Assembly: GCF_024168825.1 (NCBI RefSeq)
Contig: NZ_JALJWH010000001.1
Span: 2,480,001-2,544,000, forward strand
Length of the DNA stretch: 64,000 nt
Direction of reading: 5' to 3'
From: Paenarthrobacter sp. A20
GTDB lineage: Bacteria; Actinomycetota; Actinomycetes; Actinomycetales; Micrococcaceae
Shown: one piece after another, positions 30,912 through 43,810 of the stretch
Layout: each line of letters begins with the position of its first letter
How positions within the stretch are numbered: position 1 is the first letter of the stretch
The notes under the pieces: generated by a model
The model's input: the letters and a program-made list of their open reading frames with translations, nothing else
Databases searched by the model: none
What the model was told of the DNA's origin: nothing
Made by a program: the position numbers and the translations under genes

Positions 30912-32441
30912 ATGATGGTCCGGGATGGCTGGAAGAGTTGGGGTATGGAGCGGATTTGGAGGGGGCAGGCGGCCACTGCGGCTACTGCAGCGACTGCGGC
31001 GGTAGGGGATGTTTTGGCGGCCCTGCGTTCCGTCCACCTTGGTGTCGGTAGCCGTGGGTTGATCGACCAGATCCGCGGGCTGGAAGAGCTGAAGTCCGCC
31101 GTCGTGGGGTTGCAGGCCCGTGCCGCGGTGGCCTTTGACCTGGCCCAACGGCAGGAGCAGGCCGCGGTGGGTGTGCCCGCGTCCGAACGGGGCCACGGTG
31201 TCGGGGCGCAGATCGCGTTGGCCCGGCGGGAATCCCCGAACCGGGGCTCACGACTCCTGGGCATGGCGAAGGCGCTGGTGACGGAGATGCCGCACACCAT
31301 GGCGGCGCTGGAATCGGGCCAGTTGAATGAATGGCGGGCCACGCTGCTGGTCAAGGAAACAGCATGCCTGTCTGCGGAGGACCGGTGCGCCGTGGACGAG
31401 GAACTCTCCGCAGATACCGGCACGTTCGAGGGGAAGGGCGACCGGGCGGTCATCGCCGCGGCGAAGGCTGCCGCCTACCGGCGTGATCCGCGTTCCGTTG
31501 CCCAACGCGCCGCCCACGCTTCCACCGAACGGACCGTGACCCTGCGCCCGGCGCCGGACACCATGACCTACCTGACCGCCCTCCTGCCAGTGGCTCAAGG
31601 TGTGGCGGCGTACGCCGCTCTGACCCGGGCTGCTGACTCTGCCCGTTCGGCCGGGGACCCCCGGATCCGGGGCCAGGTCATGGCAGACACCCTCGTCGAG
31701 CGCATCACCGGCAGGCGCGGCGGGATCAGCGGAATCGACCTGCAGCTCGTCATGACCGATCGAACCCTCTTTCAGGGCGACAGCGAACCTGCCCGGCTCC
31801 AGGGATACGGAGTTGTGCCTGCAGAATGGGCCAGGGCACTGGTTGGCGCCGGAAGCGGGGCCCTGTCCGAGCAGGCCCCGGCACCAAGGCAGGAGCCGGC
31901 GCCAACGCGGGACGACGAGCTAACCGTGTGGCTCCGCCGGCTCTACACCGCGCCGGCCACAGGCGAACTTCTGACCATGGACTCCAGAGCGAGGCTCTTC
32001 CCGCCACGACTCAGGCGTTTCATCGAAACCCGTGATGACACCTGCCGCACCCCCTATTGCGACGCGCCCATCCGGCATATCGATCACGTGGTCCCTTGGC
32101 ATTCCGGCGGGACCACCACGCTGGCCAACGGGGCCGGACTCTGCGAGGCCTGCAACCACACCAAAGAAGACCCCGGCTGGAGCGCCAACACCATGCCCGG
32201 CGACAGACACACCCTGGAAACCACCACACCCACGGGACACAGCTACCGGTCGAAAGCCCCAGCCTTGCCGGGTTATAGACAGGGCTCTCGCACGTCCGCG
32301 GTGACAACTCCGGGGGTGATAGCGGAACCGTCGGCGACTCCAACAGGTTCGAGCATTACGCCCCCGGAGAGTTCACCGCAATCCCGCCGGGTTGGCCGTA
32401 GGGTGCGGTACCGGGACAAGTCGCCCGCGGTGGTTCGGTGA
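30912..32441 (+). CDS. DUF222/13E12-type HNH endonuclease domain protein
   Basis: 509 residues (or about 498 if ATG 30945 is used). A long helical DUF222 region with VGLQARAAVAFDLAQRQEQA and ESGQLNEWRATLLVKETACL leads to a C-terminal HNH site: TCRTPYCDAPIRHIDHVVPW, then LCEACNHTKE. The tail TTTPTGHSYRSKAPALPGYR is typical. These 13E12-type genes are multicopy in Arthrobacter, Mycobacterium and relatives. Their function is not settled and they are often linked to mobile DNA. It diverges from deoC. Confidence 0.88.
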   Translation: MMVRDGWKSWGMERIWRGQAATAATAATAAVGDVLAALRSVHLGVGSRGLIDQIRGLEELKSAVVGLQARAAVAFDLAQRQEQAAVGVPASERGHGVGAQIALARRESPNRGSRLLGMAKALVTEMPHTMAALESGQLNEWRATLLVKETACLSAEDRCAVDEELSADTGTFEGKGDRAVIAAAKAAAYRRDPRSVAQRAAHASTERTVTLRPAPDTMTYLTALLPVAQGVAAYAALTRAADSARSAGDPRIRGQVMADTLVERITGRRGGISGIDLQLVMTDRTLFQGDSEPARLQGYGVVPAEWARALVGAGSGALSEQAPAPRQEPAPTRDDELTVWLRRLYTAPATGELLTMDSRARLFPPRLRRFIETRDDTCRTPYCDAPIRHIDHVVPWHSGGTTTLANGAGLCEACNHTKEDPGWSANTMPGDRHTLETTTPTGHSYRSKAPALPGYRQGSRTSAVTTPGVIAEPSATPTGSSITPPESSPQSRRVGRRVRYRDKSPAVVR

Positions 32442-32467
32442 GGAAAGGGACTTCCAGCCGAGAAGGA

Positions 32468-33340
32468 TCATGCTGCAAGGGGCGCTTGCAGATCCGCGAA
32501 GCCCGGCGAACCCAAGAGCATGCCCGAAGCGCACAGCATCGCCGAAGACTCGGCGGAGAGAAGCAAACCAAGGCGAAGGCCGTCGCAGGACGCGGCGTCG
32601 CCGATCGCCCAGATACCCGGAACGGAGGTGGCGAGGTCGCGCCCCACTGCAATGCCGCCGTCGGACGCTACCAGGAGGCCGGCGCTCTCGGCGAGATCGT
32701 TGCGTGCAGTGCGCTCCTCGGCGATGACTACGAGGTCTCCGTTCATGCTGCTGCCATCCTCGAAGAGGATGCCGGTTGCCGGGAGCGGGGAGCCAGCAGC
32801 AGACGCTACGACGGCGGCAGGGCGGAGGGTGGTGCGGACGGGACGGACCCCGCGTGCCCGCAGCACGGCCTCAGCCTGGCCAGCAGCAGGTCCGTTGCCT
32901 ACGAGGATCCCCAAGGGGCGTCGGCCGACGATCCGGGTGACGTCCTTGACTGCTTCGCCGATGTTTGCGGCGTCGTCGATGGTGGAGTAGCTCAGGCTGG
33001 ATTCGGCGCCCGCCACCGGGGGCAGGACCGGGGCGGAGCCTGTTGCGATGACCAGCTGGTCGTAAGCGAACTCCATGCCGTCCACAGTGGTGACAATCTT
33101 TGAGTCGGCGTCGATGAAGCTGGCCGGCTGGCCGAAGCGGACCGAGACCTGGGGGAGTTCAGCGAGTTCAAGCAGGGCGTCCGGGCACTCGTCACGGTTG
33201 CTGAGCACGGTGATGGTTCCGTCGAACGCGCGTTGCCGGGAGTCGGACCTTCCGGCAAGTCGCCGCACCAAAGCCTGGGCGGCGGGGCCTGCGCCTGCGA
33301 TGACGATGTGGAGGGAAGGTGCGGACGGGGTGGCGGACAT
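32468..33340 (-). CDS. Short FAD/NAD-dependent pyridine-nucleotide reductase, NirB N-terminal-like
   Basis: 290 residues. FAD loop HIVIAGAGPAAQALVRRLAG, second GD-type site VPGIWAIGDAAS, and an NAD-loop region LGILVGNGPAAGQAEAVLRA. It resembles the N-terminal reductase half of NirB but is shorter than usual (about 380-400 residues), partly because the region after the first FAD loop is compressed (TVLSNRDECPDALLELAELP). The electron acceptor is unknown. It is convergent with the HNH gene; 156 bp separate its start from the patatin stop. Confidence 0.75.
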   Translation of the reverse strand: MSATPSAPSLHIVIAGAGPAAQALVRRLAGRSDSRQRAFDGTITVLSNRDECPDALLELAELPQVSVRFGQPASFIDADSKIVTTVDGMEFAYDQLVIATGSAPVLPPVAGAESSLSYSTIDDAANIGEAVKDVTRIVGRRPLGILVGNGPAAGQAEAVLRARGVRPVRTTLRPAAVVASAAGSPLPATGILFEDGSSMNGDLVVIAEERTARNDLAESAGLLVASDGGIAVGRDLATSVPGIWAIGDAASCDGLRLGLLLSAESSAMLCASGMLLGSPGFADLQAPLAA

Positions 33341-33496
33341 GTTTGGCCCTTTCGCTCATATGACCTGCTGTTGATCATCAGCGTATTCGGCCGGTTTTTC
33401 GCGGGTGTTTCCCCGCTGTTGCCATCTTTGGCGTATCCGTAGCGTGGTGTTTACCAGCCGGTAATAACGTGCGTCACATTCGGCCGCCCATGACCC

Positions 33497-34852
33497 TCAG
33501 TATCGGCGGAGCAGCTCGCGGAAACCGTTCCCAGCGAAGCCGGCCACTGCCCCCGCACGGTCCACGAGTCCGTGGGCGCCCACCGGTTCGAGGGAGGCCA
33601 GGAGCCCTGCAGCGTCGGCCAGGCTCATGCTGAGGTCGGCAACCAGCCCACCAACTTCCAGCCGGGCACGCCGCGTATCCGCCCAGGCATCCGGACCCGG
33701 GTCGTCACGCAAGGTGCGCGTCACGGCGACGCTTTGCCACCCGCCGTCGAGCCTTACCCGTGCACGGTACGTGACGTCGTCCCCCATGACCTCCACCCGG
33801 CCGCCTGCCAGGAACGCCCGCCCGAACCGTGGGTGCTCAAGGTATCCGGTGAGCTGAGGCGCTTCATCGCCGGGATCAGACGGAAGGACCACTGTGGCCT
33901 TGAGCGTCACGGGAGAACCGTCCAGGTCGCCGCGAAGGGTGTCGTTGAAGCGGACTCCCGGTGCCGGTTCAGTCATCGCAGTGCAGCTCGCATCCTTGGC
34001 CACTCCGGCGTCAGTCATTGATTCAAGGTAGGCGCGGGCATCCCGGTAACCCATCCCGATCAGGGTCTCGGCGTCGATCCTGCCCAAGTAGAACTCCGGG
34101 TCCAACGGAAGCGGGTGGCGTGGCCGGACCACATGCAGCACAAACTCGCGCCCGGCAGTTGCGGCAACCTCGAAATCCGCCAAGAGCGCCCCCATGGCGC
34201 TCATTTCGATCATGTGCACGTACTGTTCCAGCGGACCATCGCCCCAGTACGGCGTATTTCCAATGCACCAGACAAGCCATACTTCGTCGGCACCCCGCTG
34301 CAGGGCTTCGGCCACGTTGGCGTCCCGTACCCAGACCGCGTCGGTCCAAATCTTCCCGTCCCGTCGCAGGGGTGTCAGGAAGATGGGCAACGACATGCCC
34401 GCCGCCATGAGCCCGGCGTCAATGACCGTGGCGTCGAGTGCGTGGCAGCGCTTTTCGGTGAACTCCACTACGTTGAAGGAACCTTCGACGGCGCCCGGTT
34501 CAGCCGCGCGGGCGCGGATGGTTGCGTCGTTGATGCCCAGAGCCGGGAAGACTTTCCCGAGGATGCCGTCGGCATCGCCGATGGCAGGAAGGGACCACGG
34601 CCCCTTGAGATAGTCACCCACAGGCAATGCCGAGCCGAAGTCCTTGACGTCAACCCCCGACCAACGGTTGCACATCTCCTCAGGCGACACTCCTGAGAGC
34701 AGCATGCCGGCCGTGAGGATCCCGCCGGAGGTGCCGTCAACATGGTGGAATTCCAGGCCTTCCTCAGCGAGCGCCTTCACCACGCCGGCCTGCCAGGCCA
34801 CCCGCATTCCGCCACCTGCGAGGACCAGCGAGCGTTTCACGGTGCGCTTCAT
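33497..34852 (-). CDS. Patatin-like phospholipase
   Basis: 451 residues. Oxyanion loop LAGGGMRVAWQAG and nucleophile Ser42 in DGTSGGIL give the patatin GxSxG elbow; the partner Asp is probably the one in KIWTDAVWVRD. A C-terminal beta-rich domain of about 150 residues (from PGVRFNDTLRGDLDGSPVTL) is an extra module of unknown role. ATG 34852 overlaps the upstream stop by 4 nt. It is the last gene of a seven-gene coupled operon and may release fatty acids from lipids handled by the other members. Confidence 0.87.
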   Translation of the reverse strand: MKRTVKRSLVLAGGGMRVAWQAGVVKALAEEGLEFHHVDGTSGGILTAGMLLSGVSPEEMCNRWSGVDVKDFGSALPVGDYLKGPWSLPAIGDADGILGKVFPALGINDATIRARAAEPGAVEGSFNVVEFTEKRCHALDATVIDAGLMAAGMSLPIFLTPLRRDGKIWTDAVWVRDANVAEALQRGADEVWLVWCIGNTPYWGDGPLEQYVHMIEMSAMGALLADFEVAATAGREFVLHVVRPRHPLPLDPEFYLGRIDAETLIGMGYRDARAYLESMTDAGVAKDASCTAMTEPAPGVRFNDTLRGDLDGSPVTLKATVVLPSDPGDEAPQLTGYLEHPRFGRAFLAGGRVEVMGDDVTYRARVRLDGGWQSVAVTRTLRDDPGPDAWADTRRARLEVGGLVADLSMSLADAAGLLASLEPVGAHGLVDRAGAVAGFAGNGFRELLRRY

Positions 34853-35322
34853 CCTGCCAGCCCGGCGTTGGCTGGTGCCGCACTGATGCGACGCCAATAG
34901 ATGAACAGGAGTATCGCCGTCGCGAGGTCGAAGAAGGCGACTAGCAGGGCCAGGGGTGAGAAGACGCCGTTGAGGACGCCGATGCCCACGGCTCCGAAGG
35001 CGCCGGTTTTCTGCAGGCCGGACCAGAGCACCACTTCCGGGGAAGGCACGGTGTTGAGCAGGGTGTGGAGGAGCAGTCCGCCGACCACGACCATGAACAT
35101 GCCCACGGTGCCGAAGAGTTGGCGGGTTTCGGGGGTGGAGCCGGCGCCGATCAGTTGGAGGACCGGTCCGCCGAACGGAACCTGGATGGCGCCGGTCAGC
35201 ACCGTGATGATGGCAATGACTGCGAGGGCTGCTCGAAGTGGATCAGCGAGGGCCCAGGCGAGAGTGCCGGGAGGGTGCGGCCGGCGGGATCGGGCGGGGT
35301 GACCGGGCTGGTGCGCGGTCAC
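34849..35322 (-). CDS. Small membrane protein of the GMC-oxidase operon (B)
   Basis: 157 residues with GTG start at 35322 overlapping the previous stop by 4 nt. A basic, proline-rich N-terminus is followed by about four hydrophobic segments: AALAVIAIITVLTGAIQVPF, LFGTVGMFMVVVGGLLLHTL, VGIGVLNGVFSPLALLVAFF and LATAILLFIYW. The frame stays open far upstream, but those residues are His/Arg/Pro-rich read-through of the neighbour. Family not recognised; its context argues for a membrane subunit of the operon product. Confidence 0.72.
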   Translation of the reverse strand: MTAHQPGHPARSRRPHPPGTLAWALADPLRAALAVIAIITVLTGAIQVPFGGPVLQLIGAGSTPETRQLFGTVGMFMVVVGGLLLHTLLNTVPSPEVVLWSGLQKTGAFGAVGIGVLNGVFSPLALLVAFFDLATAILLFIYWRRISAAPANAGLAG

Positions 35323-35801
35323 GCGAACGACTCCAACAGCCGGCCGCGGTCCACCAGCAGCCACACCATGGCGGCCCAGGTGAGGGTGGATACGTAGAAG
35401 CGGATGTCGTTGAGCATCATCCAGCGTTTGAGCAGGGTGCGCAGTTCGGTATCGTCCGCGAAGTCGCCGCCACGGATCCGGACGTTGATGGGGATGATGA
35501 TGCCTTGGCCCACCCAGGTCAGGACGATGATTCCCAGCAGGCAGATGATGGCGGGGATGACGCGGATGGTGCCCCATTCGGACCAGACGAGGATGCCGCC
35601 GGAGATGAACATGATGGGCACCACGATGGTGAAGAACTTGGTGGCCGCACGCGTGGGGATGCCGAAGTGCATGTCCACGTTGTCGCGGGCCAATGATTCC
35701 CATGTGGGGTAGAGGAAGAACTTGAGCACCCACATGGTGCCGACGTACATGGTGGCGCCGAAGAGGAAGTAGAGGGCGTTGATCAGGAGGAGCCAGTTCA
35801 T
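35319..35801 (-). CDS. Small membrane protein of the GMC-oxidase operon (A)
   Basis: 160 residues with four membrane segments: LLLINALYFLFGATMYVGTM, FFTIVVPIMFISGGILVW, IPAIICLLGIIVLTWVGQGI, and a C-terminal TWAAMVWLLV. A conserved-looking charged loop (RIRGGDFADDTELRTLLKRW) lies before the last helix. ATG 35801 overlaps the upstream stop by 4 nt and its own stop overlaps the next start by 4 nt. I do not recognise the family; it could serve as a membrane anchor or electron-transfer partner. Confidence 0.74.
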   Translation of the reverse strand: MNWLLLINALYFLFGATMYVGTMWVLKFFLYPTWESLARDNVDMHFGIPTRAATKFFTIVVPIMFISGGILVWSEWGTIRVIPAIICLLGIIVLTWVGQGIIIPINVRIRGGDFADDTELRTLLKRWMMLNDIRFYVSTLTWAAMVWLLVDRGRLLESFA

Positions 35802-36751
35802 TGGGCACCGCCCTGTACCCGGCTGCGGTCCGGCGGGGCCAGCCATTCCTGCCCTTGGCCCAAATCCACCACGCTGTCCATCATGTCCCCGCCGCGCAGC
35901 GCTGCGGCTTCGAGCTGGGTGGGGGCTGTGAGGAACCAGGCTTCGTAGTGGTCGTCCAGGACACCGTGGGCTTGCGGCAACCATGCGGTGAACACCGGTT
36001 TGCTTTCTACCTGCAGCTTTTTCAAGGGTTCGACGCCGGGCGCGTCACCGAGGATGAGCCGCGCCTTGGCTTGGGCTCCGAGGGCGATGTCCCCGGTGGC
36101 TTCGAAGTAGATGTCCGATTTCCAGAGCATGTTCCGGAAGACACAGTAGTTTGAGGCAGCGAGTTTGAGTGGCAGCTGGGTTGCGCTTGGCGCTGCGGGC
36201 CGTTCGATCTCGATGTAGCAGCCCAACTGGCCGTCCTTGTCGTACTGTGCGGAGACCGAGGAGTCCGTGACCACGAAGTCCAGGTTGGCTTGGTGTTTGG
36301 GCATTCCCCAGATCCCTTTGCCTCCCTTGACTGAGACTTCGGAGCTCACGGGCAGGTCCACCACGAACTGACCCAGTTTGAAGGTCTTTTGGAAGATCAG
36401 CGGGAGGATGGGCGGGGCTGGGCGGCTGCCGTGGGTGATGGCGATGGCCAGGGAGTATTCGATGTACTTCCCGATGTCAGTGGATTTGTAGTTGACCACC
36501 GTCACCACCAACAAGCCTTTGCCGCCGAGACTGAACGGCCGCATCTCGGAACCGGGGAGCGCAGCGGCCGCGGCTTTCTTGTTGATGGGGAAGGCCGCCA
36601 TCAGTACGGGCGAGTCATCGGAATTGACCGGCATGACGTACTTGATCCCATCCGCGAAGGCATGCTGCCCGCGGAGCCGCTCCTGCCGCCGTGGAACCGG
36701 AGACGGGAGGAGTTTGAGCAAGGGTGTGGCCAGCTCGGTGAGGTTTTTCAT
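35798..36751 (-). CDS. Acetoacetate decarboxylase-like protein
   Basis: 317 residues. The segment FVVDLPVSSEVSVKGGKGIW followed by GMPKHQANLDF matches the acetoacetate decarboxylase (ADC) family core, where the lysine of the xPK motif forms the Schiff base; here it is MPKH rather than the clostridial PKK. VVNYKSTDIGKYIEYSLAIA fits the earlier beta region. ATG 36751 overlaps the upstream stop by 4 nt; the open frame beyond it is out-of-frame hydrolase sequence. Decarboxylation or aldol-type chemistry on an oxo-lipid is possible but unproven. Confidence 0.78.
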   Translation of the reverse strand: MKNLTELATPLLKLLPSPVPRRQERLRGQHAFADGIKYVMPVNSDDSPVLMAAFPINKKAAAAALPGSEMRPFSLGGKGLLVVTVVNYKSTDIGKYIEYSLAIAITHGSRPAPPILPLIFQKTFKLGQFVVDLPVSSEVSVKGGKGIWGMPKHQANLDFVVTDSSVSAQYDKDGQLGCYIEIERPAAPSATQLPLKLAASNYCVFRNMLWKSDIYFEATGDIALGAQAKARLILGDAPGVEPLKKLQVESKPVFTAWLPQAHGVLDDHYEAWFLTAPTQLEAAALRGGDMMDSVVDLGQGQEWLAPPDRSRVQGGAQ

Positions 36752-37821
36752 GGTGTTGGCTCCTGGGCTGGGCTGATTGCTGGGGTTCCGTTGAGTTCGT
36801 TGACAATGACTGGGAAGGTGTCCTGCCAGGCGTGGTCGCCGAAGAAGACGTCCAAATGGCCGTAGCCGGGGATGAGGTGGAGTGAGTCCTTCCCGGGGCG
36901 GTGCTTTTGGAAGAACGCGAAGGTGCGTTGCTGGCTTTCGGGCAGGAAGCACAGGTTGTCCAGGCCGGCGATGAAAGCGAACCTCGCGTCGGTCTGGGGA
37001 GCCTCTGCGACGAAATTGTCCGGCAGTTCCGGATGGTCGCCGGCAGCCACCATGTGCCCGGCTTTGATGCTGCGGCCCATTTCTTCGAAGAAGGTCACGG
37101 GTACCTCCGCGAACTCTCCGCTGAGCCACTGGTGGGTGGCGTCGTCGAGGTTTTCATGGGACCAGAGGGCCGGGCGGCCGCTGCCGTAGGTGAAGCTGAC
37201 CATCTTGCAGACGGTGTTGTCGCATTCATGGTGCGTGGCTTTGACCAGGCCCCGGATGGCCCGGGTGAAGTACCCCTGCGACTTGTACCCCCACGCTGGT
37301 GACAAGTACGGAGTGAAGACCTTGACCACAGGGGTCAGGTAGTCGATCTTGAGCCGGGAGAACGCCGGAACCACCGGGTGCAGGGACACCGCATTGGACA
37401 CGATGGTGTCCACTTGCGGCAGGAGTCCGGCCACGGCGGACATGGTGAATGATGTGGATCCCTGGCAGTGGATCACAGCCTTCATGGTCTCCGCGCCCGT
37501 CGCGTTCAGGACGTGCTCGACGGCGGCAGGATGGTCGTACACGGCCGCGTCGGCAAGCGTCCAGGACAGCGGATCGAGGTCGATGGAAGCCCGCCAGTTC
37601 AGCATCCACACATCCCAGCCGTCTTCGAGGAGGACGTCTACGATGGTGGTCTTGACCGGGGGCCGGAACAGCTCAGCCCTGACGCCTGAGCCGTGGACCA
37701 GTATCACGGGACCCTTTGTGGCTTCCGCCGGCGACGTGACGTGGACGAGGCTGAGCGGTGTGTTGTCCCGGGCACGGAGGGGGATGACCTCAGTCCTGTG
37801 CTCGGCACGGGTGATGATCAT
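36748..37821 (-). CDS. Alpha/beta hydrolase with apparent cysteine nucleophile
   Basis: 357 residues. VILVHGSGVRAELFRPP gives the HG oxyanion region. The nucleophile elbow reads KAVIHCQGSTSF, placing Cys119 where a Ser normally sits. LIPGYGHLDVFFG supplies the C-terminal catalytic His. A Cys nucleophile is known in PHA synthases (GxCxG), so thioester or acyl-transfer chemistry is possible. The lid region is long (about 150-290). It overlaps both neighbours by 4 nt. Hydrolase genes of this type next to GMC oxidoreductases suggest lipid or sterol substrates. Confidence 0.82.
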   Translation of the reverse strand: MIITRAEHRTEVIPLRARDNTPLSLVHVTSPAEATKGPVILVHGSGVRAELFRPPVKTTIVDVLLEDGWDVWMLNWRASIDLDPLSWTLADAAVYDHPAAVEHVLNATGAETMKAVIHCQGSTSFTMSAVAGLLPQVDTIVSNAVSLHPVVPAFSRLKIDYLTPVVKVFTPYLSPAWGYKSQGYFTRAIRGLVKATHHECDNTVCKMVSFTYGSGRPALWSHENLDDATHQWLSGEFAEVPVTFFEEMGRSIKAGHMVAAGDHPELPDNFVAEAPQTDARFAFIAGLDNLCFLPESQQRTFAFFQKHRPGKDSLHLIPGYGHLDVFFGDHAWQDTFPVIVNELNGTPAISPAQEPTP

Positions 37822-39836
37822 GGGGTGCTTCCCTTCTGTGTGATGGTGATGGTCCGTGCGATGGTGATGGGTTCTTCAAGAAGCCGCACGCCGGGCAGGC
37901 CGGTAACCGGAACCAGGCGCGCGCCGTCGTCGCTGCTTGCCAGTTGCCAATCGCGGCAGACTGTGTCCACCATGAGGGGGTAGACGGTGAGGTCGCCGTC
38001 GGGTGCGAGGTGGATGCGGAGGAAGCCTTTATGGTCCTCGATTGCCTGGCCGGACATCCTCCAGGAGGACACCTCTCCGCTGGGCGTCGCCAGGATGTAC
38101 AGGGCAAAGGCCTCGCTGCCGAGCACCCAGCCACCCAGATGCACCAGCGCCAGGGCCAGGACCAGGATCACGAAGTCCGGCCAGCTTCCTGGCCAGGGAA
38201 CCAGGATCACGACGGCGGCACTCACCGCGAGCGCTGACAGCTGGTACAGCGCGCCCCGGACAAAAACGACGATGCCTGCCTTGGCCACTCCGAGCCAGCG
38301 GGCAAGCGTGGAGGCGACGGCCAGCACCAGCGGAAGGGCAAGGACCAGGACGAGGACCAACAACCAGGTGTTGCCGCGGGTGAGGCTGCGCAGGCTGTCC
38401 ACGAACGACTCGCCGCGGAAGGCGCTGAAGACGGTCCACAGGGTCAGGGCGGCCACCACGTGCACTATGCCGAGCGACAATCCGAAGCCGGGGTTGCGGA
38501 TGGGGAGCCAGAACTGCGAGAAGGGGTTGGCCAGCTGCGGGCCGAGCAGGCGGGAATCTCCTTGGCCGGGAAAGGTGGTGGGTGTGCGGGTGAACGTTCG
38601 GGCTGCGGCTGTGGGCTCAGGGCCTGGCTGCCCCGTGCCCGTCAGCCCCGTGTGTTCGCCGTTGGAGGACTCACCGGGAGCCGCCGACGGGGCAGGAAGG
38701 ACGATGTCCTCCGGCAGCCCGTGTGTATCCGAGAGGTAGGCGCCGCCCAACCCGCAGGTGATCATCTGGGTCTTGCCTGGATCCGGTGCCTGGTGCTGGC
38801 CGCGGGAGTGCTCTCCGGGGTGGGAGTCCTCGTAGCGGGCGTAATGGTGGAGGTCGCCGGTGAGCCACAGCCGGACGCTGGCACCGGTGGCTTCGAACAT
38901 GCCGGTTTCAGGGTTGAAGCGCCGGCGCAGGTAGTCCTGTTCGAAGAAGTTTGCCTGGCGGAACTCACCCAGGGCCGGATCAGCGGCGTCAACCCAGAAG
39001 GGGGCGGCCACGCAGAGGATGATCGCGTCACCTGGCTGCAATTGAAGGGTGACGTTCCGGTAGAAGTAATCCAGCTGCGGCTCGTCGATGTACTGGCCCA
39101 ATTGACTGTCCAGGCCCAACAGCCACCAGCCGGGCGTGCCGCCGCGGCCCGGCCCGGGAGGGGCGCCGGTGAGCCGGACGGCAAAGTAGCTGCGCGTCTG
39201 GATGGTCCGCCAGCCCCCGATGCTCCGTTGCCTGGTGAAGATCCGGACGAAGGAGGTGAGGCCGTCGTACCAATCGTGGTTGCCGGGAAGCGCAAGCATG
39301 ATGGGTACGGGATCCCGTCGAGGGTGGGCCGGAAATGCCGTCCGGTACGGGCCGGCCATCCGGTTCTCATAGGCCGCCGGGGAAGCCACAGGGTAGACCT
39401 CGTCCCCTCCCAGCACCAGGATCCTGCCGCGGGGGAGCTCATGTCCGTCCACGGTCAGGGTGTCCTGGGCCAGCAGGGATGCCACCGTGTACGTGGCATC
39501 GAAGCCGTCGCCGAGGTCGGCCGCGAAGTCGAGCCACATGTCCGCAGGTGCCGACCCTGCTGCACGCTCGTCCTGAAGCCCGGCAGGCGAGGGCAGGCCC
39601 CGGCTGCTGACCGGGGGCTGCGCCGGCTGGCCCTGGACGGGAAGGTTATCCAAGCGCAGGGGATCGGCGGGAAAGCTGCCCTCAAGCTCACGCTTATCGC
39701 CAAAATCGGCGAATACGGTGGCCGCCGCAACCTTCAGCGCAGTCCTGGCCAGCGACATGGGTGAGAGCCAACGAACCGCCGCCTGGGGTGTGAAACCCAG
39801 GACGGCGTGGTGTTTCGCGAGCTCCCAGCTTTTCAT
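37818..39836 (-). CDS. Membrane-bound metallophosphoesterase
   Basis: 672 residues. Metal-binding motifs of the calcineurin-like superfamily are in order: VLGGDEVYPVASP, LALPGNHDWYDGL, and LWLTGDLHHYARYE. After an Ala/Pro/Thr-rich linker, about four membrane segments follow near residues 470-610 (LSLGIVHVVAALTLWTVFSA, WLLVLVLVLALPLVLAVAST and others), and a soluble C-terminal tail of about 60 residues ends the protein. Start ATG overlaps the GMC stop by 4 nt. Substrate unknown; lipid phosphates or phosphodiesters would fit the membrane location and operon. Confidence 0.85.
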   Translation of the reverse strand: MKSWELAKHHAVLGFTPQAAVRWLSPMSLARTALKVAAATVFADFGDKRELEGSFPADPLRLDNLPVQGQPAQPPVSSRGLPSPAGLQDERAAGSAPADMWLDFAADLGDGFDATYTVASLLAQDTLTVDGHELPRGRILVLGGDEVYPVASPAAYENRMAGPYRTAFPAHPRRDPVPIMLALPGNHDWYDGLTSFVRIFTRQRSIGGWRTIQTRSYFAVRLTGAPPGPGRGGTPGWWLLGLDSQLGQYIDEPQLDYFYRNVTLQLQPGDAIILCVAAPFWVDAADPALGEFRQANFFEQDYLRRRFNPETGMFEATGASVRLWLTGDLHHYARYEDSHPGEHSRGQHQAPDPGKTQMITCGLGGAYLSDTHGLPEDIVLPAPSAAPGESSNGEHTGLTGTGQPGPEPTAAARTFTRTPTTFPGQGDSRLLGPQLANPFSQFWLPIRNPGFGLSLGIVHVVAALTLWTVFSAFRGESFVDSLRSLTRGNTWLLVLVLVLALPLVLAVASTLARWLGVAKAGIVVFVRGALYQLSALAVSAAVVILVPWPGSWPDFVILVLALALVHLGGWVLGSEAFALYILATPSGEVSSWRMSGQAIEDHKGFLRIHLAPDGDLTVYPLMVDTVCRDWQLASSDDGARLVPVTGLPGVRLLEEPITIARTITITQKGSTP

Positions 39837-42505
39837 TGCTTCGGCTTGAAAGGGAACGGGATACGTTTGAGCCCCGCACCGTAGACCTGCCGGAGTTCGC
39901 CACCGAACAACTTCCCGAAGGCCACCAATCCTGCAACGGGGGCTGGGCCTTCGGGGCGGAACGTGGTGAGTTGCTTGGCGAAGTCGAGAGGCCTGATGTA
40001 AAGGATGCCGGCGCCCACGACGCCCTCATGGCCGGTGTCGTCTGAGGCCGGCAGCCCGGCCGGTGGAACGTGCCCCTTGAGGATGGTCGCATACAGGGTG
40101 GTGGTGTCCGCCCAAAGGTCGAAGCCTGCCTCGTTGTGGATCAGTTTGTGCCCGGTGAACGTGAAAGGCGTTCCGCCTGGGTCCCGCAGCCACAACCGGT
40201 ACAGCATGCGCCTGGCTGGTGCGCCGTCGTCGGAGGTGTCCTCGACAAACAGGTTGAACCAGCCACGCTCCACCGGCATCCGGCCGCCGAAGAAGTCCGC
40301 CAAGACATAGCCCTCGGTCTTGGCAGGGTGGTTCGGGTCGGCAACGAACGCGTCAATGTCCTCGGCAACAATGGTCAGCTCGAACATGATCCGACGGCTT
40401 CGGTCCCGCCCCAGGCTCCGGCCCTTTTCCGGGTCGGTGATGCCGGGACTGAACCAACCGTGCATCTGTTCGGTGAACCGCACGGACGTTGCATCCTTGT
40501 TTTGAGCGCCAGGCACCCCCAGGCCGCGACTGCGCACCCCGGACCCTTCGGAGACGGCGCTCGCAGGCTGTTCCTCGGGCGCCGCCTTGCCTTTGGTAGC
40601 GTCCGGTGCCAGAGCGCGCGGAGCGGACGCACCGACGTCGACGACGGCGCCTGCCGCCTCGCGCTCAACGGTCGCCTTTCCGCTGGACTCGCCCGGGGCC
40701 TGCGCATCTGCGGGACTGATGCCTCTGTGGCCCGCCCTGTCCGCGTCCTCGACGATGTGGGCACACGTGCGTTCCGCGAACGCGGCGATGGTCAAGGACG
40801 GGTTGGCGCCCACCGGACCGGGCATAGCGGCTCCATCGACCACGTACAGCCCCGGGTACCCGAACACCTCGCCATAGGAATCGCAGACTGCCTCCCCGGG
40901 GTGCCGGCCGGACGGCGCGCCCCCGATCGGGTGGACGGTGATGACGCGCTTGGCCCACCACAGCGGGTTGTCAATGAAGTCGCCGTCGAGGTCTTTGGAA
41001 ACCGACTCCATGGTTTCGCGGACGCGGCCGAAGTATTCCTTGGACGTGGCCATGGTCCAGGCGATGGCGAGCCTGCCGTCGCGAAGGGTCATCACGCCGT
41101 CGGGAATGTCCCTGCCCATGCCGAGCAAAGGCACCGAACTGGACGATAGGCGGCCGTCACCCAAGGCTGCGGCGAGGTCGGCCGAGACGTTGGAACGGCC
41201 GGAGTCGAACAGCCTGTCCTTGAAGAGTTGCCCCGCGACCCTGGCGGTGCGTTTGATGGTGGTTCCCAACTGGGCGGTTTCGATGAGCCAGTTCATGAAG
41301 GCCGGATACCCGGCGTCCTCCACGTAGTAGCCGCGGCCATCGCCGTCGTCGTCGTTCGAATCCGGAACCCTGATCGCTGTGGTGATCACCGGTCCTCGGC
41401 TGCCGGCCAGCGTTCGGACGCCGGGACGCGAGCCGTTGGCAGGGGGAGTCTTGGCGCCCATGATGAACGTCAAAAGGTCGCCGTTGCCGCTGAACCGGGT
41501 GCCCAAGGCGTCACTGAGTGCCGGGAGGGACCCGCGGTTGCGGAGCAGCAGGAAGTTGGTGCCGAACGTACCTGCACCCAGGATGAGCCTGCGGCAATGG
41601 ATGATGCGCTCGGTGAGGAGTTCGCCGTGGTGGTCCGGATTGTGCACAACGTACCGGACCTCATAACCGCTGTCCGGCGTTCCGGAATCCAGCGGCCGGA
41701 TGCCGCGGACATCATGGAAGGTGCGCACATCGGCGCCCTTGAATGCCGCGGCTGAGACGTAATTGTGGTCCAAGGTGTTCTTGGCGCCGGCGTTGCACCC
41801 GATGTCGCATTCACCGCTGAGCGTGCACGTCGTCCGCACAGTGTCGGGGCCATGGATGCTGCCGTAGCCGGGCAGGGGCAGCGCATGGTTGGTCCGCGGT
41901 TCCGCGGTCGGGCTGCTGGAGAACGTGATGGCAAGGGGCGGGCGGGTGATGGCCAGGCCCAGGTTCGCGGCCGATTTTTCCATGGCCACGGTTTTGGCCG
42001 TGTCCCTGTACGGGTAGGGGACAGGCTGGAGCATAGCCTCGGCGGCATCGTAGTAAGGTTCGAGATCTGCCCGGGTGAAGGGCCAGTTCTCGTACCCGCC
42101 GCCGGGAATGGGTGACTCGTTGACGAACCACTTTTCGTCTTTGCGCAGCAGCACGTTGGCGTAAATGAGTGAGCCGCCACCCAGCCCGCTGGACACCAGT
42201 CCCTCAGTGCCACGGAATGTCCAGGCGTCAAAGAGCCCGTACAGGCCGCGGTCCGGATCCCAGAAGTTCCTGCCCATCTCGGACGGCGAGCGCGCGAAGC
42301 TGCCGGGTGGGTAAGGTTTGCCGCGTTCCATGAGCACAACGGACTGCCCGGCTTCGGCCAGTCGAAGTGCGGCCACGGAACCGCCGAAGCCTGAACCAAC
42401 CACCACTGCGTCGACTTTTTCGATGCCACTGCCCCGGTGGCGTGAAGGATCACTGGCGGGTTCGGTACCCGCATCCCCACTGTTCCCGGTCCCCAGACGA
42501 CCCAT
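39833..42505 (-). CDS. GMC-family oxidoreductase (cholesterol-oxidase-like) with C-terminal beta domain
   Basis: 890 residues, first gene of the seven-gene operon, with GAGAGGAA before the ATG. The FAD-binding loop is VVVGSGFGGSVAALRLAEAG near residue 36. GLVSSGLGGGSLIYANVLLR and the late VITVHPIGGAPSGR and YVVDGAAMPGPVGANPSLTI match cholesterol-oxidase-type GMC enzymes. An Ala/Glu-rich linker (about 600-685) leads to a C-terminal domain of about 200 residues starting near FTEQMHGWFSPG, which is extra to a minimal GMC enzyme. It likely oxidises a hydroxyl on a hydrophobic substrate. The exact substrate cannot be read from sequence. Confidence 0.87.
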   Translation of the reverse strand: MGRLGTGNSGDAGTEPASDPSRHRGSGIEKVDAVVVGSGFGGSVAALRLAEAGQSVVLMERGKPYPPGSFARSPSEMGRNFWDPDRGLYGLFDAWTFRGTEGLVSSGLGGGSLIYANVLLRKDEKWFVNESPIPGGGYENWPFTRADLEPYYDAAEAMLQPVPYPYRDTAKTVAMEKSAANLGLAITRPPLAITFSSSPTAEPRTNHALPLPGYGSIHGPDTVRTTCTLSGECDIGCNAGAKNTLDHNYVSAAAFKGADVRTFHDVRGIRPLDSGTPDSGYEVRYVVHNPDHHGELLTERIIHCRRLILGAGTFGTNFLLLRNRGSLPALSDALGTRFSGNGDLLTFIMGAKTPPANGSRPGVRTLAGSRGPVITTAIRVPDSNDDDGDGRGYYVEDAGYPAFMNWLIETAQLGTTIKRTARVAGQLFKDRLFDSGRSNVSADLAAALGDGRLSSSSVPLLGMGRDIPDGVMTLRDGRLAIAWTMATSKEYFGRVRETMESVSKDLDGDFIDNPLWWAKRVITVHPIGGAPSGRHPGEAVCDSYGEVFGYPGLYVVDGAAMPGPVGANPSLTIAAFAERTCAHIVEDADRAGHRGISPADAQAPGESSGKATVEREAAGAVVDVGASAPRALAPDATKGKAAPEEQPASAVSEGSGVRSRGLGVPGAQNKDATSVRFTEQMHGWFSPGITDPEKGRSLGRDRSRRIMFELTIVAEDIDAFVADPNHPAKTEGYVLADFFGGRMPVERGWFNLFVEDTSDDGAPARRMLYRLWLRDPGGTPFTFTGHKLIHNEAGFDLWADTTTLYATILKGHVPPAGLPASDDTGHEGVVGAGILYIRPLDFAKQLTTFRPEGPAPVAGLVAFGKLFGGELRQVYGAGLKRIPFPFKPKQ

Positions 42506-42653
42506 GGCCGTTCCTCTCAGAGGAGATCTGACTACATAGCTGCAGCTGACGGCGCCGGGCGTGGCCGGGCGATGCCTCCGCGGACTATGGGGCTTATGTT
42601 CCCACCGGGCAGGGGATCTGTAAATGAGGTGGAGTTATTGGGTAGTACTCGGG

Positions 42654-43085
42654 TTAAGCGAGGCGCCTGTAAACCATGTCAAAGTCGTGTTCCAGCGGTC
42701 CACCGGGGTAACTGCCCCGCTCCAAGCGCGCAGTGATGGTGGTGCCATCCTCGCTGAAGCGGCCAACAAAGCGCTGAGGCCAGTCCGGTCCATCCCGGAA
42801 AAGGGTCCACAACTTGTCCTTGAGCGTCATGTCGTAGATCCGCGCTACGCCACGCGAGTCGAAATAGTGCTGCTGGAACGCACCGTCCGAGCCTGTGGCG
42901 CCGATGACGCTGACCGCGTTGGGGTACTCGGGGTGCTGGACCGTGGAGCGCTGAATGAGGAAGCCTCCGCCCTCGAGCCACTCGAACGCCGTCCTACCGG
43001 AGATCTCCATGCCCGGAACGGACGTTTCCCACTCGCCGACCAGGATGTTCAGTTGCTCCAACGTGGGTTTTGGATCCCGTGCCAT
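42654..43085 (-). CDS. Conserved protein, DUF1579/lipocalin-like
   Basis: 143 residues opening with PTLEQLNILVGEWETSVPGM and AFEWLEGGGFLIQRSTVQHP, then QQHYFDSRGVARIYDMTLKD and RFSEDGTTITARLERG. The LVGEW opening and the alternating beta pattern resemble small beta-barrel families (DUF1579 or nitrobindin-like) that appear alone in actinobacterial genomes. No catalytic residue is evident. About 150 bp separate it from the GMC operon start on the same strand. Confidence 0.7.
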   Translation of the reverse strand: MARDPKPTLEQLNILVGEWETSVPGMEISGRTAFEWLEGGGFLIQRSTVQHPEYPNAVSVIGATGSDGAFQQHYFDSRGVARIYDMTLKDKLWTLFRDGPDWPQRFVGRFSEDGTTITARLERGSYPGGPLEHDFDMVYRRLA

Positions 43086-43213
43086 GGCTGCCCTCTCTTC
43101 GCGTCTTCGCGCTGGTGAACAGGTTCAGCGTAGAGCCCGTCGGTTCCTCCGCCTAGGGTCCTGGCCCCAACTGTTTCCTGTACGGCCGGCATGGTGGGTG
43201 GCAGGATGGGCGC

Positions 43214-43810
43214 ATGAGCCGAGTAACCTGCGATCTCACCGTGTCTCTGGACGGCTTTGTTGCCGGCCCCAACCAGTCCCTGGATCAGCCGCTGGGGGAG
43301 CGCGGCGAAAGCCTGCACCGCTGGCAGTTCGAAGAACGTGAAGCCAACGCAGCCGAAGTGGCCGGGATCCTGGAGGCGGGCGCCTACATCATGGGCAGGA
43401 ACATGTACGCAGGACCAGGGGCCGGCCCTTGGGACGCGGACTGGCGCGGGTGGTGGGGTGAGGAACCTCCTTACCATGCGCCCGTCTTCGTCCTGACCCA
43501 TCATGAGCGGGAGCCCTTGGAGCTGCAGGGCGGCACGACGTTCCACTTTGTCACCAATGGTATTGAGGCTGCACTGGACCGTGCCCGGGAAGCTGCCGGC
43601 AGCAAGGACGTGGCCATCGCCGGCGGAGCGCAGACGGCCCGGCAGTTCCTCTCGGCGGGGCTGATGGACGAGTTGAGGCTCCACATCTCGCCGGTCATTC
43701 TCGACGGCGGCGAGCGGCTGCTGGATGGACTCGGGGACGTCCGCCTGGAGCCGGTGGACGTACGGGGGACCGGGCTCGTGACGCACGTACGGTACCGCGT
43801 GATTCGCTAG
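43214..43810 (+). CDS. Dihydrofolate reductase/RibD C-terminal family protein
   Basis: 198 residues. SRVTCDLTVSLDGFVAGPNQ, AGAYIMGRNMY, the glycine-rich DVAIAGGAQTARQFLSAGLM and DELRLHISPVILDGGERLLD are the standard series for the RibD C-terminal/DHFR-like NADPH-dependent reductase family. Most members next to unrelated genes have no defined substrate. GGCAGG precedes the ATG. The AAA ATPase gene begins 31 bp downstream on the same strand. Confidence 0.9.
   Translation: MSRVTCDLTVSLDGFVAGPNQSLDQPLGERGESLHRWQFEEREANAAEVAGILEAGAYIMGRNMYAGPGAGPWDADWRGWWGEEPPYHAPVFVLTHHEREPLELQGGTTFHFVTNGIEAALDRAREAAGSKDVAIAGGAQTARQFLSAGLMDELRLHISPVILDGGERLLDGLGDVRLEPVDVRGTGLVTHVRYRVIR

Follow-up and report, generated by a model that had tools for sequence, protein, structure and literature searches.

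What brings a flavoenzyme, a phosphoesterase-like protein, an alpha/beta-hydrolase, a relative of acetoacetate decarboxylase, two small membrane proteins and a patatin together in one gene cluster? The question is raised by a locus of Paenarthrobacter sp. A20 at 33497-42505, on the minus strand of the window, as we call the whole stretch of 64,000 nucleotides analysed here (contig NZ_JALJWH010000001.1, positions 2,480,001 to 2,544,000). The answer that we favour, with a probability of about 0.6, is that its products form a single multi-enzyme pathway, associated with the membrane, that works on a hydrophobic, lipid-like molecule, and that the cluster is inherited as a module. The seven genes are as follows.

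42505-39833, minus strand: GMC, 890 amino acids (aa), a flavin adenine dinucleotide (FAD)-dependent GMC-type oxidoreductase core (aa 29-587) with a C-terminal barrel domain, here called CT
39836-37818, minus strand: MPE, 672 aa, a divergent membrane metallophosphoesterase-like protein
37821-36748, minus strand: ABH, an alpha/beta-hydrolase with Cys119-His322-Asn289 replacing Ser-His-Asp
36751-35798, minus strand: ADC-like protein, 317 aa, acetoacetate-decarboxylase superfamily
35801-35319, minus strand: M1, a small membrane protein with a weak anthrone-oxygenase-like match
35322-34849, minus strand: M2, a small membrane protein with no family match
34852-33497, minus strand: PAT, a patatin-like acyl hydrolase with a Ser42/Asp171 dyad and a diverged C-terminal CT domain

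When one genome per species was searched with the ADC-like protein, 162 relatives came up, of which the best 80 loci (numbered here with the prefix L) were kept and searched with all seven proteins. Counted at E 1e-5 and within 9 kb of the ADC gene, ABH accompanies it in 77 of these loci, GMC in 74, PAT in 69, M1 in 64, M2 in 63 and MPE in 58, and the full seven are present in 46. Sixty loci have 8 kb or more on either side (full-flank loci); of these, 57 hold ABH, 57 GMC, 53 PAT, 50 M2, 48 M1 and 43 MPE, and the complete set is found in 39. Beyond the Actinomycetota there are 22 full-flank loci (L070 and L072, both among them, are the same genome with identical ABHs), where ABH and GMC are each seen 21 times, PAT 20, M2 17, M1 16 and MPE 9 times, and all seven together 8 times. 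Besides Actinomycetota, the cluster occurs in Bacteroidota, Rhodothermota, Cyanobacteriota, Pseudomonadota, Acidobacteriota, Myxococcota, Nitrospirota and Vulcanimicrobiota, and outside Actinomycetota the genes often run ABH-ADC-M1-M2-PAT, with GMC (and MPE) on either the downstream or the upstream side. The initial annotation had let its proposal depend on the seven families being found together in other genomes; this search was run, and they form one co-conserved unit. Since the same catalytic parts occur together across phyla in varied orders, are fused in several ways and have one extra domain in common, a single pathway is the simplest reading. The membrane proteins, the lipase-type hydrolases and the sterol/alcohol-type flavoenzyme suggest that the substrate is hydrophobic.

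The extra domain is CT, a mobile antiparallel barrel of about 200 aa, which is present twice in the window.

39878-40501, minus strand: CT domain of GMC (aa 669-876)
33500-33940, minus strand: diverged C-terminal CT domain of PAT (profile comparison with the CT alignment: probability 93%, E 3.2e-7, 143 columns)

By BLAST with the standalone CT proteins found at L062, L065 and L069, the domain is present on 52 of 74 GMC rows (one of the 52, L043, is a patatin). Plain BLAST finds it on PAT in 23 of 28 rows outside the Actinomycetota and 26 of 41 within. It is also carried by 37 of the 120 listed ABH homologues, 36 times on the N-terminal side (for example P0021 and P0004) and once at the C-terminus (P0099). 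Paraburkholderia L070 joins GMC-CT-ABH in a single frame of 1139 aa, while in the Myxococcota L056 and L061 a single open frame holds M2-PAT-CT. The AlphaFold2 model of CT (pLDDT 87, pTM 0.84) is a small antiparallel barrel that gives middling matches to many barrels in the PDB and no clear relative, with nothing below E 0.01 in Foldseek; CT may or may not belong to the calycin superfamily. No Pfam family matches CT at E 0.01, and a relation to other small antiparallel barrels such as avidin, Gid4, AttH, PyrI4/PloI4, OmpA and Cap15 is no more than possible. Kinship with the barrel of the ADC-like protein was also considered and is unsupported (probability 0.3%). From its distribution, we infer that CT may carry a ligand or dock the enzymes.

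How much the tight packing of the genes adds is a separate matter. The seven minus-strand genes and six 4-nucleotide stop/start overlaps of the initial annotation are confirmed by direct reading at all six junctions.

39836-39833, 37821-37818, 36751-36748, 35801-35798 and 34852-34849, minus strand: ATGA overlaps
35322-35319, minus strand: GTGA overlap

As a local control, a rough GC-frame gene caller placed 44 genes in the window, forming 28 same-strand neighbour pairs; possible 4-nucleotide overlaps occur in 4 of the 28, all within the cluster, and in 0 of the 24 elsewhere. The caller missed M2, so that 4 of the 6 cluster junctions were visible to it, and the control is a weak null because the 24 other pairs include many that are widely spaced and do not share an operon. 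In the relatives, the criterion was that a start codon exists at -4, which is the case at 28 of 42 GMC>MPE, 39 of 44 MPE>ABH, 49 of 77 ABH>ADC, 47 of 61 ADC>M1, 40 of 59 M1>M2 and 41 of 59 M2>PAT junctions. Every junction examined in the nine nearest relatives (L002-L009 and L051; L005 contributes the first four only) has such a start, save M2>PAT of L003. Beyond the Actinomycetota the gaps vary and gene order is often altered, and the overlaps are therefore not a constant feature of the gene set. Fixed stoichiometry or a complex, which had been read from the overlaps, was too strong a conclusion, as other phyla keep the genes while spacing and order vary. What stands of that interpretation is a functional, perhaps physical, coupling of the enzymes, for which the fusions and the shared domain argue; overlap alone is no proof of a complex. 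Promoters and terminators predicted in 32400-43300 show no excess over shuffled sequence.

The individual proteins indicate which chemistry might be coupled. ABH reaches the Abhydrolase_1 family (28.1 bits, cut-off 25.8) with an altered active site.

37465-37467, minus strand: codon of the ABH nucleophile Cys119, in an HCQGS elbow found in 78 of 78 cluster ABHs
36955-36957, minus strand: codon of ABH Asn289, likely at the position of the catalytic Asp

The Cys, His and Asn patterns are present in all 78 cluster ABHs in place of a Ser-His-Asp triad, and Cys and Asn in all 120 listed homologues, 119 of which also have the His pattern. One profile alignment (E 0.0011, probability 21%) places C119, N289 and H322 on the Ser, Asp and His of canonical alpha/beta-hydrolases, while two single-sequence comparisons gave no alignment. 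The nearest matches of the ABH profile are gastric and lysosomal acid/cholesteryl-ester lipases (PDB 1hlg, 1k8q, 6v7n; E 7.3e-10 to 2.8e-8), which differ in having Ser at the aligned elbow, and ABH has Asn where the catalytic Asp would be expected. The C-terminal part has one weak match to a solved structure, a putative esterase, in the His region only (E 0.0054). PHA synthase (9knj) is a further profile match (E 6.6e-4), with its Cys aligned to that of ABH, but ABH scores far below the curated PhaC models (18.9 of 365.3 and 15.3 of 622.65 bits). No close ABH relative with Ser was found in the genome of the window. Given the invariant Cys nucleophile, the thioester/ester chemistry of the initial annotation was a good guess.

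GMC matches GMC_oxred_C at 54.6 bits, and its closest solved relatives by sequence are cholesterol oxidase chains (best E 1.9e-28, phmmer). Like the GMC-type cholesterol oxidases (PDB 4u2l, 1coy), it has an alignable FAD-binding core and His/Asn pair; His525 and Asn568, which we take to be the active-site pair, are each kept in 73 of 75 aligned rows. Unlike them, it reaches only 199.6 bits against the curated cholesterol oxidase model NF058674 (cut-off 850, about 650 bits higher), and it has the C-terminal CT domain as well as the following motif.

41795-41827, minus strand: ferredoxin-like Cys motif of GMC (aa 227-237), CxxSxxCxxxC in the window

The form CxxCxxCxxxC is found in 50 of 75 rows and CxxXxxCxxxC in 21, including the window; of the four rows with neither, L030, L032 and L048 are partial and L043 is really a patatin. 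The aligned stretch of cholesterol oxidase has no Cys. From the motif we infer a candidate Fe-S cluster in GMC.

The ADC-like protein belongs to its superfamily by PF06314, above cut-off, and by the ADC fold of its model.

36296-36298, minus strand: Lys152 of the ADC-like protein, candidate Schiff-base lysine in ..KGGKGIWGMPKH.., kept in 80 of 80

P151, K152 and H153 are found in all 80 family members, and the canonical PKK (Lys followed by a second Lys), which we take to mark the catalytic Lys of acetoacetate decarboxylase, is replaced. Lys152 was aligned by eye with the PKK of a canonical acetoacetate decarboxylase of the same genome; the profile alignment (E 0.069) reached the upstream stretch only. 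In its modelled ADC fold the protein keeps a Lys of the catalytic type. Relative to solved members of the superfamily (3bh2, 3c8w, 5upb, MppR 4jmd, 4zbt; identity 11-16%), it has an invariant His rather than Lys after Lys152, and its 317 aa include an invariant KGGKGIWGMPKH-type loop. A sequence search with its profile gave no solved relative at E 1. The canonical decarboxylase is encoded outside the window, at G000:C1:3084524-3085285 (L082; 163.7 bits).

PAT is a patatin (PF01734, 92.5 bits, cut-off 27.7) with Ser42 in 69 and Asp171 in 70 of 70 rows. It shares the Ser/Asp dyad and family match with patatin-like phospholipases (PlpD, 5fqu) and differs from them in bearing CT, or M2 plus CT in Myxococcota. 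M1 stays below the cut-off of Anthrone_oxy (PF08592; 23.1 of 27.3 bits), and M2 matches no Pfam or NCBIfam family at E 0.1. The two were considered as paralogues, which is unsupported (hhalign probability 0.6%).

MPE also falls below the cut-off of its nearest family (Metallophos, PF00149; 14.0 bits, cut-off 21.5). Its residues D103, D107, D110, D145, N186, H187, D188, D328 and H330 are each kept in 56-57 of 59 rows, two rows being gapped there, and hydrophobic segments lie at about aa 455-560. Because GNHD and several Asp and His are kept, a divergent kinship with metallophosphoesterases is likely. Seven clusters without a window-type MPE have another metallophosphoesterase-like gene or domain, of types L043/L047, L071/L077 and L060/L065 (L060 assigned by family grouping, the others scored by Pfam) and, among other fusions and REPLACEMENTS, a Metallophos domain on the GMC of Bradyrhizobium L063 (40.6 bits, cut-off 21.5). 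The replacements of L043 (24.2 bits) and L065 (24.3 bits) are above the Metallophos cut-off. That replacements recur in this way speaks for a phosphoesterase step as part of the system.

A putative scheme, its steps given in no implied order, can be drawn up from knowledge of the families. MPE would take off a phosphate or open a phosphodiester, and PAT would cut an ester, releasing an acyl group or an alcohol. GMC may oxidise an alcohol to a ketone or aldehyde, with electrons passing via FAD and an Fe-S cluster; Lys152 of the ADC-like protein might form a Schiff base on the resulting carbonyl, followed by decarboxylation or rearrangement. Cys119 of ABH could make a thioester and transfer or release the acyl part, with M1 and M2 perhaps serving as an anchor or as an electron relay. 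Common to GMC, PAT and, elsewhere, ABH, the CT barrel would bind substrate or provide the docking between enzymes. In its most specific form, this is a phylum-crossing lipid pathway in which mobile CT passes one hydrophobic intermediate among a cysteine-lipase-like acyltransferase with Cys-His-Asn, an Fe-S GMC dehydrogenase, a patatin, a Schiff-base ADC-like enzyme and a phosphoesterase, a tentative picture that we rate at clearly less than even odds.

Several observations weigh against a single module with this chemistry. The locus sample is the best 80 of 162 relatives and was picked via ADC. ADC stands alone in L022, L025 and L075, and L036 and L041 lack M1, M2 and PAT. The full set is not obligatory, since M1, M2, PAT and MPE are each absent from some clusters. 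In the phylum sample described below, the genomes with ABH and those with PAT overlap in two only; the ABH-only genome G195 has a reduced set at L087 (G195:C81), GMC-CT directly followed by ABH, with the other five genes not found in 19 kb. CT is missing by BLAST from 22 of 74 GMC rows, and a ligand-binding role is a guess, given a fold with no close solved relative. As to the phosphoesterase, the replacements of L071 (21.0 bits) and L077 (18.0 bits) are below the Metallophos cut-off, as is the window MPE itself, and that of L047 neither matches Pfam nor aligns with the window MPE. A search that was not exhaustive found none of these phosphoesterase types near 10 of the 22 full-flank loci beyond the Actinomycetota (L052, L054, L066, L068, L069, L070, its duplicate L072, L074, L081 and the ADC-only L075). 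Finally, the evidence singles out no particular substrate.

Narrower or different roles were weighed with the help of the flanking genes. In the flanks of loci other than the close ones (118 of 206 listed open reading frames, E 1e-5), no Pfam family among the best 25 of 139 listed is found in more than three frames, and no recurrent regulator, transporter or synthase stands beside the cluster. The first three alternatives below are narrower forms of the single pathway, so that their odds overlap and do not sum to one. Remodelling or repair of membrane lipids, in which the enzymes would act on endogenous (oxidised or phosphorylated) lipids, for instance during drying or oxidative stress, would suit the membrane segments of M1, M2 and MPE, the patatin and the phosphoesterase-like protein, as well as the lack of a recurrent transporter family in the scanned flanks; many of the host taxa inhabit soil or surfaces. 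A stress regulator is not recurrent there either, however, and patchiness even inside one genus fits a dispensable role, and we hold this reading to be rather unlikely.

A sterol or long-chain alcohol is a possible substrate, judged from the distant similarity of GMC and ABH alone. The operon would then serve the catabolism of a sterol or long-chain alcohol ester from the environment: esters would be split by PAT and ABH and the freed alcohol oxidised by GMC in the manner of a cholesterol oxidase, with the ADC-like protein acting later and MPE removing phosphate. Cholesterol oxidase as the nearest solved relative of GMC by sequence, the acid and cholesteryl-ester lipases nearest to the ABH profile and the patchy distribution all agree with this, but GMC fails the curated cholesterol oxidase model (199.6 of 850 bits), its Cys motif is absent from the aligned cholesterol oxidases, and the scanned flanks show no recurrent family for ring cleavage, beta-oxidation or uptake, which makes such an operon unlikely. 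More doubtful still is a biosynthetic cluster for a lipid-like secondary metabolite: relatives with the ADC fold include biosynthetic enzymes (MppR, and a Streptomyces aldolase-dehydratase) and M1 is weakly similar to anthrone oxygenase, yet polyketide, peptide and terpene synthase families are not among the recurrent flank families listed. An anti-phage defence operon with PAT as effector and the barrel as sensor is very improbable, as no defence family recurs in the scanned flanks and ABH and the ADC-like protein bear conserved active sites of metabolic type; a known defence system was rejected, with 0 of 7 proteins matching a PADLOC model at E 0.01.

The single lipid-like pathway, if that is what the module encodes, is thinly spread. 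In a sample of 100 genomes of the family, including that of the window, ABH (E 1e-40) is present in 3, with PAT in the same 3 at a distance of 2-3 kb; one of five genomes of the genus has the cluster, the window's own. Among 197 genomes of the phylum, ABH (E 1e-60) and PAT (E 1e-30) are each found in 3, with two in common, one of which is the window's own. All seven genes are present in G107 (L088; phylum sample), where both GMC and PAT bear CT, and in G023 (L089; family sample). The ABH match of L088 (G107:C1:39310-40344) contains an in-frame TGA, and the PAT-only genome of the phylum sample is G232, with a weak patatin match. A quick tree of ABH groups mostly by phylum (12 label changes over 9 groups; minimum 8, shuffled mean 29.6), as would suit an old module that was retained in patches and perhaps transferred now and then. 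Viral contigs with ABH were not confirmed by tblastn, and one plasmid record, of Arthrobacter sp. StoSoilB13 (unannotated), has a relative.

Variation is also seen around the cluster. In two Arthrobacter genomes (L022:9956-10945 and L025:10001-10939), an ADC-only locus lies between a gene for a LacI-family regulator (labelled by a Pfam run on the L022 gene) and the downstream oxidoreductase that flanks the full cluster; either the six other genes were lost, or ADC is older than the rest. A further small membrane-type protein adjoins M2 at L055:11673-12287, L078:11826-12239, L058:5216-5635, L064:3477-4052 and L060:12878-13468. All five belong to one family (Pfam gives DUF4345 for that of L055), four of the loci being from Bacteroidota and one from Acidimicrobiaceae; the protein is an optional eighth part. 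Beside the clusters of L052 (13940-16153) and L068 (4877-7132) are odd proteins of 738-752 aa, again one family, that of L052 having a family 1 glycosyl hydrolase domain and a family 3 solute-binding domain. In the window, the neighbours outside the cluster look unrelated. They are a 143-aa protein just upstream of GMC (42654-43085), with no match in Pfam or NCBIfam and present among the 80 loci only in L002-L009 and L051, and a pyridine-nucleotide oxidoreductase downstream. Another open reading frame at 30912-32441 (plus strand, 509 aa) has near its end, by eye, what we take to be an HNH-like motif.

Each of the enzymes is a member or a distant relative of a known superfamily; their active sites are unusual, and the CT domain that they share is new. 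No description of the seven-gene combination was found in the open-licence PMC literature, which does not establish its absence from print. PMC6642262 asks whether cysteine lipases exist in nature; ABH is a candidate answer to the question as put there, with a profile nearest to acid lipases yet with invariant Cys, His and Asn. What were seven separate 'family protein' annotations become one testable system, seen across the nine groups labelled by phylum in the ABH tree. CT is an unnamed domain common to three enzyme classes, and the function of one member would carry over to many genomes.

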